Below are positions 36,562-39,304 of a stretch of DNA of 64,000 nucleotides, piece by piece. The stretch is from Blakeslea trispora (lineage: Eukaryota > Mucoromycota > Mucoromycetes > Mucorales > Choanephoraceae), in contig JAIWNE010000053.1 of the NCBI GenBank assembly GCA_025331445.1, forward strand, positions 124,001-188,000. Reading direction: 5' to 3'. The notes below the pieces were generated by a model. That model worked only from the letters and a program-made list of their open reading frames with translations. It did no database searches and was not told where the DNA came from. Positions within the stretch are counted from its first letter, which is position 1; every line of letters begins with the position of its first letter. Made by a program: the position numbers and the translations under genes.

Positions 36562-38526
36562 ATGTCAGCAGTCGCAGCAACACAAAACGACAGTATCCTT
36601 GATAAAAAGGATGAAACAAAAGCTCAACATCACAAGGTGAGAAGGAGAAACAAAAAGAAGAGCAAGAAACAACGCCAAGAAGAAGAAGCACAACGTAAGG
36701 CAGTAAGTAATGAAGCGCGTATTCTATACAAAACAAGCTTTTCTGACTCTATAAAAAAATAGTCGCAACAACAACAAAACGAAGATGAGCAAGTACCAGA
36801 TGATGTGGAAATTGAGTATGTGGTTCAGCCAGTTGACATGTCTCAGTTAAAGACTATGGACGGTTTATCCAACCTTGATGAAAACACTCTTCAGCAGTTT
36901 TCTGACATCTTTAAACACTTTCAAACAGGCAAACCAGAAGACAATGAAGAGGTAAATAATATCAATTAGCAAGGGAGAATGTAATGACTGAGCAATCATT
37001 GGCATAGGAATTTCCTGTGCTTGATAATACAGCACCATCATCTGAAATAAAGGAAGACAATTCAGACGACGATGAAGACGGAGACAAAGACTCGGACCAA
37101 CCCTTGTCCAAGAAGAAGATGAAGAAGATTCAACGTCTGACTGTAGCTGAGTTGAAACAGCTTGTAAAGAAACCCGAAGTTGTTGAGGCAAGTATGGCTT
37201 ATTCTTGTTATGATTTATCTCATGCTTATTCTCTCTTTTATAAAGTGGTGGGATGTAACAGCCAATGATCCCAAATTGTTAGTCTCACTTAAATCATACC
37301 GTAATTCAGTACCAGTACCTGCACATTGGAGTATGAAGCGAAAATACCTTCAAGGAAAGCGTGGTATTGAGAAGCCACCATGGGAATTGCCTGATTTCAT
37401 CAAGGATACAGGTATTATGGAAATGCGTGATGCTGTGAAAGAAAAAGAAAATGCAGCTGGACTCAAGAGCAAGATGAAGGAGAAGGTGGCACCCAAGATG
37501 GGCAAACTCGATATCGATTATCAAAAGTTACACGACGCCTTTTTCAGATTTCAGACAAGAGGCAAATACACGATGCATGGCGAGTTATATTATGAAGGTA
37601 AAGAATTCGAGACGAAATTAAAAGAACAAAAGCCAGGTCAACTATCGGAAGATCTGAAGGAGGCACTCAATATGCCACCGTTGGCTCCACCTCCATGGTT
37701 GATCAATATGCAGCGTTATGGACCACCACCCAGCTATCCTAACCTCAAGATCCCCGGTCTAAATGCTCCTATACCCGAAGGTGCTCAATGGGGTTACCAT
37801 CCCGGTGGTTGGGGTAGACCTCCTGTAGATGAATACAACCGTCCTCTCTATGGTGACGTGTTTGGTGTTGCCCAGCCAACAGCTGCACCTCCCGAGATTG
37901 TTGAACCCGTAGATAAACAACTATGGGGTGAACTTGATCCAGAAGAAGAATATGAAGAAGAATCGGAAGAGGAAGAAGAGGAAGAGGAAGAGGAAGAAGA
38001 AAGTCAAGGACAAGACGAAGCACCTACAACTGCTGCTGATGACCTGAATGATGGCCTGGCCACTCCCTCTGGCATGCAATCCATTGCCTCTGGTCTTGAG
38101 ACACCCGACCATATCGAACTACGTAAAGATCGTAAACGTGAAGAAGAGGACGGACCCAAGCAACTCTACCAAGTCTTGCCTGAAGTTCAAAAGAACATCT
38201 CTGGCTTCATGGGCTCGCAACATGGTTATGATTTGACTTCTGTTGAAAAGCCAGTTATTGCACCACCACCAGGCAGACAACAAGTCCCTGCTAAGCGAAA
38301 GGCAAATGATGTGGATGTGGCTATTGATCCTAGTGAACTAGAAAGTGGTTTAGATGAAGCTACCTTGCGTGCTAAATATGAAGCCCAGATGCGTGCCAAA
38401 TTACCATCGAGTGGTGACAATGAGGATCTATCTGATATGTATGCTGAACATGCCAGTCGACAAGCAAAGAAAGCAAAAGCATCAGAAAATAGAAAGGAAG
38501 GAAAGAAGAAGGAATTTAAGTTTTAA
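36562..38526 (+). CDS. SF3B2: Splicing factor 3B subunit 2 (SF3b145/Cus1)
   Basis: Subunit of the U2 snRNP SF3b complex, which anchors the branch-point helix. Exons 36562..36702, 36763..36951, 37008..37187, 37246..38526, total 596 aa. The conserved core is unmistakable: LTVAELKQLVKKPEVVE, the DUF382 block SVPVPAHW..KRKYLQGKRGIEKPPWELPDFIKDTGI, MGKLDIDYQKLHDAFFRFQT, and the PSP domain around GPPPSYPNLKIPGLNAPIP and PLYGDVFG. An acidic run of Glu follows; the C-terminus ends KKKEFKF as in other members. Intron 3 (37188-37245) starts GCAAGT, a GC-AG intron; that choice joins PEVVE to the next exon as the family requires. SF3b serves both major and minor spliceosomes. Convergent with BRL1/BRR6, the two stop codons being 2 bp apart. 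Confidence 0.95.
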
Positions 38527-38528
38527 TG

Positions 38529-39304
38529 TCAATAAAATTCGAGATGATAAAGAAACTAAACAACAATAAACAGACAATGACCTAGTCATATCGATTGAGT
38601 TTGAGTCAATGAAATCCATTAGCAAGCTTACCATGGCTTTAAGACTAAGTGAATCAACAAACCCGTTCAATAGTTCACCAACCACTTGTGCTGCTACTTT
38701 GGTAGTACTTGCTAGTATTGGCTGATATTGCCTACATGTAAAATAAGACTTGTTAAGGATGTCACTTGTTATTTCTTTTTTTTTGTTTCTCTTTTTCTCT
38801 CTCTCTTGTAAAAGGATATTTATCCCATTCACTACAAATAGATTGCCAAACTGCTCCAGCCAATTCAGGACCACACTGATGTTTTACGTAATTTTGGTGA
38901 CATTGTCGGGCTTTTTCTGCATATTCTGAAATTTCCAAACAAAATCAATCACTGCTTATTTTCTTCTTTTCTTCTTTTTATTACCTTCAAGTTTCAACTG
39001 ACAACGTGATTCTATCTCTGCAGTCAATGATCTGAGTAGTTGATAGGTTATGAATAGAATAGCAAAAATGCCTATAGCTCGCATGATGACTCGTAGATAG
39101 CTAAAGACAGTGATGAGATTGTTTACAAGGTAAGGATCATCCTAGTGATTTAAACCTGGAGATAATGATTGGTATATCGGGTGTTGCCAAATAACGAAAG
39201 CAACTGTCAATTAAATGCTTTATTCTCGAAAAAGGATCAACAGGAGGGGTTTCCTGTATGACCCTTTGTCTTTTAGTAGGTCTTTTATCTTCAAAGCTTG
39301 ACAT
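38529..39304 (-). CDS. BRL1/BRR6-family nuclear-envelope protein
   Basis: Nuclear-envelope membrane protein needed in fungi for nuclear-pore biogenesis and lipid homeostasis. Exons 39304..39156, 39100..38985, 38925..38820, 38737..38632, 38555..38529, total 167 aa. One membrane helix (MRAIGIFAILFITYQLL) precedes the lumenal domain with its conserved Cys: CHQNYVKHQC, ICSEWDKC and the closing LLNGFVDSLSLKAM, which parallels 'IINSFIEPISYKTM'. The third intron (38819-38738) is AT-AC and only this splice puts the fourth Cys in place. The second membrane helix usual after 'KTM' is not visible; the last exon adds only 8 residues, while reading through the last intron instead gives about 50 residues that overlap the SF3B2 coding end. 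The 3' end is therefore uncertain. Confidence 0.85.
38738..38819 (-). other. U12-type AT-AC intron
   Basis: An 82-bp intron beginning ATATCCTTTT and ending TTTTAC. TCCTTAAC lies about 15 nt before the 3' end, the U12 branch-site consensus at the right distance. No GT donor can replace it in this stretch, and the join gives the sequence EWDKC required by the BRL1/BRR6 family. Confidence 0.85.

Follow-up and report, generated by a model that had tools for sequence, protein, structure and literature searches.

The BRL1/BRR6-like gene

Blakeslea trispora is a mucoralean fungus. The stretch analysed here (the window) is 64,000 nucleotides of contig C235 (219,730 bases) in a 37.2-Mb assembly, and its minus strand carries a gene whose product resembles the BRL1/BRR6 family. 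A public hypothetical protein of B. trispora, P0001, comes from the same gene and has the same joins for exons 1 to 3. The features are as follows.

39156..39304, minus strand: exon 1, from the ATG at 39304 (P0001 agrees, but begins at an in-frame ATG upstream)
39101..39155, minus strand: intron 1, GTTTAAAT...TTTAG (join as in P0001)
38985..39100, minus strand: exon 2 (join as in P0001)
38926..38984, minus strand: intron 2, GTAATA...TTCAG (join as in P0001)
38820..38925, minus strand: exon 3, ending ...SICSEWDK with its last codon split in phase 2 (from the frame)
38738..38819, minus strand: intron 3, putative U12-type AT-AC intron, 82 nt, phase 2 (from signals, frame and domain gain)
38810..38819, minus strand: its 5' splice site, ATATCCTTTT, with a predicted pairing of -6.1 kcal/mol to the 5' end of U11
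38752..38760, minus strand: its branch-site motif, ATCCTTAAC, predicted to pair with the genome's U12-like RNA at -7.6 kcal/mol
38738..38739, minus strand: its 3' splice site, AC, with the top Pfam score among the 20 junctions scored
38632..38737, minus strand: exon 4, CRQYQP...SLKAM, which provides the last predicted lumenal cysteine (from frame and Pfam)
38582..38631, minus strand: intron 4, GTAAGC...ACTAG, 50 nt (from the second hydrophobic stretch and the Pfam gain)
38516..38581, minus strand: exon 5 with the stop (from frame and Pfam), overlapping the end of a plus-strand ORF by 11 nt

That plus-strand ORF (37168-38526) contains DUF382 and PSP domains, is convergent with the BRL1/BRR6-like gene and lies tail-to-tail with it; we take it to encode an SF3B2-like splicing factor. 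Intron 1 (39155-39101, minus strand) has an unusual start, GTTTAAAT, and contains ATCCTTACC, yet its 5' splice site does not belong to the minor type.

The spliced product is 180 amino acids long and matches positions 1-129 of the 133 in PF10104 (Brr6_like_C_C) at 91.9 bits against a cut-off of 25, which bears out the family assignment made in an earlier note on this DNA. A 19-residue scan marks residues of about 44-79 and 146-180 as hydrophobic, and five cysteines were counted by eye between these two stretches. The last exon was provisionally begun at acceptor 38556; this was replaced by acceptor 38582, which gains 10.8 Pfam bits and adds the second hydrophobic stretch. Protein searches for relatives of the gene returned P0001, this fungus's own protein, as the sole match, and no related solved structure was found (best E 0.89).

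The yeast relatives are required for nuclear pore assembly and biogenesis, and in yeast Brl1 a lumenal domain, whose four cysteines form two disulfides, joins two membrane spans (PMC9402233). The Blakeslea protein is like them in its PF10104 domain, its two hydrophobic stretches and the cysteine-rich stretch between, but unlike the yeast proteins it has a short N-terminus.

The probable U12-type AT-AC intron

Intron 3 of the BRL1/BRR6-like gene is very probably a U12-type AT-AC intron, as judged from its signals and from the protein that its removal would yield. Its first base is the A at 38819 and its final base the C at 38738, minus strand, so that the position given in the earlier note (38738..38819) is exact. 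Introns of this class have (A/G)TATCCTT at the 5' splice site and a branch site resembling TCCTTRAC, and cutting them out from AT to AC restores a conserved frame. Intron 3 has ATATCCTTTT first, ATCCTTAAC inside and TTTTAC last, and joining its ends gives the full-length PF10104 match described above. The core of the branch motif, TCCTTAAC, lies at 38759-38752 on the minus strand, 14 nt from motif end to intron end; in minor introns this distance is expected to be roughly 10-20 nt. The U12-type signals claimed in the earlier note are thus all present. The pattern ATATCCTTN{30,60}TCCTTRACN{8,20}AC matches once in the 64-kb window and in none of 100 dinucleotide-preserving shuffles.

The same note had held that splicing here, and only here, yields EWDKC. 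The junction does produce EWDK/C, but "only" is too strong: counting the AT-AC junction of intron 3, 74 junctions with GT-AG, GC-AG or AT-AC ends keep the frame. Scoring on PF10104 covered 18 of the 73 others and one unlisted AT-AG junction. With the same provisional last exon, these 19 alternatives reached 45.9-70.1 bits versus 81.1 for AT-AC; with the better last exon the AT-AC junction scored 91.9, the AT-AG junction 81.3 and two other junctions 79.4 and 76.1. The choice of the AT-AC junction is based on Pfam and not on sequences of relatives.

Three other explanations of this region were considered. An ordinary major intron, with GT-AG or GC-AG ends and different borders, is extremely improbable: many such junctions keep the frame, but those scored reached 45.9-67.9 bits against 81.1 (18 of the 73 listed alternatives, three end types pooled), and most delete or insert domain residues. 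It is also very improbable that no splicing occurs here, with P0001 correct or the gene a decayed copy that retains the motif as a relic. The public model does read through, running into intron 3, where in-frame stops end it at 164 amino acids. However, this truncates the domain to positions 1-76 of the 133 in the profile (40.9 bits), and the downstream exons match the remaining profile without stops. A model such as P0001 is what a gene caller refusing AT-AC ends would give.

A minor intron with AT-AG ends would keep the 5' and branch sites unchanged and use the acceptor AG at 38733-38732, six bases later, giving EWDKQYQP. This junction is in frame and its AG comes after a pyrimidine-rich stretch, but it loses the last predicted lumenal cysteine and falls below the AT-AC junction with either last exon (70.1 versus 81.1 and 81.3 versus 91.9 bits). 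Additionally, five candidate introns elsewhere in the genome (L004, L005, L014, L060 and L062) each have an in-frame AC 11-16 nt past the branch motif, and the AT-AG reading is accordingly judged improbable.

If intron 3 is a U12-type AT-AC intron, U11 would pair with CCTTTT in its 5' splice site and U12 with the ATCCTTA surrounding its branch adenosine. The minor spliceosome would then ligate exon 3 to exon 4 past the AC (SICSEWDK/CRQYQP), and the product would have a complete domain and both hydrophobic stretches. We infer that cells splice the transcript in this way.

The minor-spliceosome machinery

The genome contains a U11 snRNA at C247:46504-46720 (66.9 bits against an Rfam gathering score of 39, E 9.7e-11), whereas the U11 model matched none of 14 control genomes. 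The RNA reaches 217 nt (L002:1501-1717) owing to its first stem-loop, a long hairpin that far exceeds that of the model, with 81 extra positions. Its fold is well beyond those of shuffles (z -5.97). A U12-like RNA lies at C11:107419-107580 on the minus strand and scores 45.8 bits (E 1.2e-6), below the gathering score of 53; the U12 model had no match in the control genomes. Its 5' end with GAGUAAGGA and its AAUUUUUUGA site both align to the model, but its fold is only slightly better than those of shuffles (z -1.79). Although it is below the gathering score, the U12-like RNA is judged to be real because a 14-nt element is common to the regions upstream of U12 (72 nt) and U11 (70 nt). The search for minor-spliceosome proteins covered U11/U12-25K only. 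Two pieces of C219 exceed the PF18036 cut-off, and the protein joined from them by hand scores 83.7 bits on PF18036; its match to the U11/U12 small nuclear ribonucleoprotein 25 kDa protein of PDB chain 8r7n_B has E 2e-9.

No match to the Rfam models of U4atac and U6atac was found in the whole genome, and no control genome matched either. A 22-letter U6atac core was found nowhere in the genome with up to three mismatches. A 16-letter core with up to two mismatches occurred at 11 places, versus 19 for the reversed control, and none of the 11 loci matches U6atac. A gapped core occurred at 30 places versus 22 for the control, and none of the 10 fetched matched. These negative results are weak evidence of absence, since the Rfam searches are silent in the controls as well and, in Lichtheimia corymbifera, U4atac is reported as undetected and U6atac as highly divergent in its second half (PMC4133162). 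Both RNAs presumably exist in diverged form.

The earlier note had suggested that the organism keeps a U12 machinery, and the U11, the U12-like RNA, the 25K homologue and the further AT-AC candidates described below agree with this. The genome check that it proposed came out in part: U11 and a 25K homologue are present, the U12-like RNA is below its cut-off, and the searches for U4atac and U6atac gave nothing. Its placing of the fungus in Mucorales fits the organism name of P0001.

An element upstream of small RNA genes

In the genome the 14-nt element, AACCAYAACTTGTC, occurs three times without a mismatch (L026, L027, L028:1501-1514).

C11:107639-107652, minus strand: 72 nt upstream of U12
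C247:46434-46447, plus strand: 70 nt upstream of U11
C258:150145-150158, plus strand: 67 nt upstream of SRP RNA (RF00017, 124.9 bits)

The pattern was derived from the U12 and U11 sites, and only the SRP RNA site is independent. With up to one mismatch there is no enrichment (41 places versus 94 for the reversed control). Used to look for more snRNA genes, the element gave none among the 20 of the 38 inexact loci that were compared with Rfam (no match at E 0.1); of the other 18, 11 were inspected as short pieces and seven (including L045) were outside the Rfam scan. AACCAYAACTTGTC may be a shared promoter element. In Lichtheimia a shared promoter element is reported as not found (PMC4133162).

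A near-identical multi-copy sequence occurs in L034, L039, L042, L043 and L044 near 1480-1750, and in L045 by matched letters only. It consists of AACCACAACTTGGC followed by TATATAAACCC, some 150 conserved bases and a T run. The copies in L034 and L042 have no Rfam match and contain no tRNA. The sequence may represent a family of small RNAs not yet described, or a short repeat.

Other candidate minor introns in the genome

The pattern TATCCTTN{25,55}TCCTTRAC occurs at 12 places in the genome versus five for the reversed control, and four of the 12 are intron-like: the window's intron, L004, L005 and L014. The pattern TATCCTTTN{26,56}CTTRAC occurs at 39 places versus 25 for the control. All 39 were inspected, and frames were checked for ten candidates from both searches. 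Six candidates were accepted, namely the four intron-like places, L060 and L062. All six start with ATATCCTTTT, have a frame-keeping AC 11-16 nt past the branch motif and meet an in-frame stop if read through. In five of the six, another acceptor is also frame-open from the same 5' site (in L062, that acceptor uses a different frame); the AC is therefore a choice and not the sole possibility.

Among the five further AT-AC candidates, those in the VPS11-like and DIS3-like genes appear to be the best supported. Spliced L014 matches PEP5_VPS11_N at 58.8 bits. Spliced L005 matches RNB at 52.7 bits, and a DIS3-like exonuclease, which is its top hit in the PDB, aligns across the junction with no gap. 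Spliced L004 scores 18.1 on RabGAP-TBC, under the cut-off of 25.2, and spliced L060 and L062 have no Pfam match. By eye, L062 resembles a palmitoyltransferase. The six candidates are a lower bound because the patterns demand short introns whose signals are near-perfect.

No convincing GT-AG minor intron was found under the strict patterns used. A G precedes TATCCTTT in seven of the 39 places (L056, L057, L064, L066, L076, L108 and L110), none of them convincing; six were judged by eye from their ends and L066 by a frame check. L066 has CCCTTAAC, but its AG is only 7 nt on. Two other rejected places are outside the six accepted candidates: L065, which lies in an LSM12-like gene, contains ATATCCTTTTC and GCCTTAAC, but the acceptors that keep its frame are 28-31 nt on, and L109 is weak.

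U12 and the branch site

The U12-like RNA has GAGUAAGGAUAA where the Rfam consensus has GAGUAAGGAAAA. The base before TCCTTRAC, which the pattern leaves free, is A in all four intron-like places versus one of the eight others. In five of the six candidates the duplex energy at the branch site favours this U12 over the consensus one, and in L060 the reverse holds.

Window's intron: this U12 -7.6, consensus U12 -6.5
L004: this U12 -11.5, consensus U12 -9.1
L005: this U12 -10.3, consensus U12 -7.7
L014: this U12 -13.5, consensus U12 -9.2
L062: this U12 -7.8, consensus U12 -5.3
L060: this U12 -8.0, consensus U12 -8.7

Pairing strength alone cannot single out minor introns, since, in the BRL1/BRR6-like gene, the ATCCTTACC of intron 1 reaches -11.0 kcal/mol with the U12-like RNA, and with U11 the 5' end of intron 4 reaches -6.7 kcal/mol. 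U12 and the branch sites may have changed together; this is a lead and not proof, because the sites are few, the genome is AT-rich and only one species is concerned. A bolder proposal is that the Blakeslea minor spliceosome is near its last stage, with nearly all surviving introns AT-AC, and that GAGUAAGGAUAA in U12 and ATCCTTAAC at the branch replaced GAGUAAGGAAAA and TTCCTTAAC in a lineage-specific compensatory change that preserved pairing. This proposal is tentative and, at present, rather doubtful.

Significance and comparison with known systems

Minor introns are already known in Mucorales; what is new is this instance, in a BRL1/BRR6-like gene. Literature searches found no paper for Blakeslea trispora with the spliceosome or for BRR6 with the minor spliceosome, and none of the matches listed for U12 and AT-AC introns in Mucorales named that order. 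Blakeslea would be a further mucoralean fungus with minor splicing, and would have a minor intron in a relative of the yeast genes on which nuclear pore assembly depends. P0001 would be a public gene model that misses an AT-AC intron and whose protein is cut short as a result. A genome with few minor introns suits the question of what sustains a second spliceosome, and the wider leads are the U12/branch-site co-change, the AT-AC-only remainder and the common upstream element.

U12-type introns are known in Rhizopus oryzae and Phycomyces blakesleeanus, in which the minor snRNAs are marked as present; ESTs gave one AT-AC and two to three GT-AG minor introns in R. oryzae, and 8-9 and 8-12, respectively, in Phycomyces (PMC2846911). 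Blakeslea is like both in being mucoralean with few minor introns, AT-AC among them, but unlike both it has no convincing GT-AG minor intron under the strict patterns. Just a few minor-spliceosome components are reported for Apophysomyces (PMC5604411).

Among early-diverging fungi with minor introns, Rhizophagus irregularis has 205 predicted and Basidiobolus meristosporus 249, and Rhizophagus also keeps the full set of four minor snRNAs along with a 25K orthologue (PMC10639083). Blakeslea resembles them as an early-diverging fungus with minor introns, with at least six strong-signal candidates versus their 205 and 249. That survey reports no convincing minor introns in Ascomycota and Basidiomycota. 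It classifies annotated introns, and unannotated AT-AC introns would therefore be under-counted there.

In Lichtheimia corymbifera the third stem of U12 is reported as atrophied and the last stem of U11 as extended (PMC4133162). Blakeslea is similar in its low-scoring U12 and in that the searches turned up neither U4atac nor U6atac, whereas the U11 extension is in the last stem in Lichtheimia and in the first stem-loop in Blakeslea.
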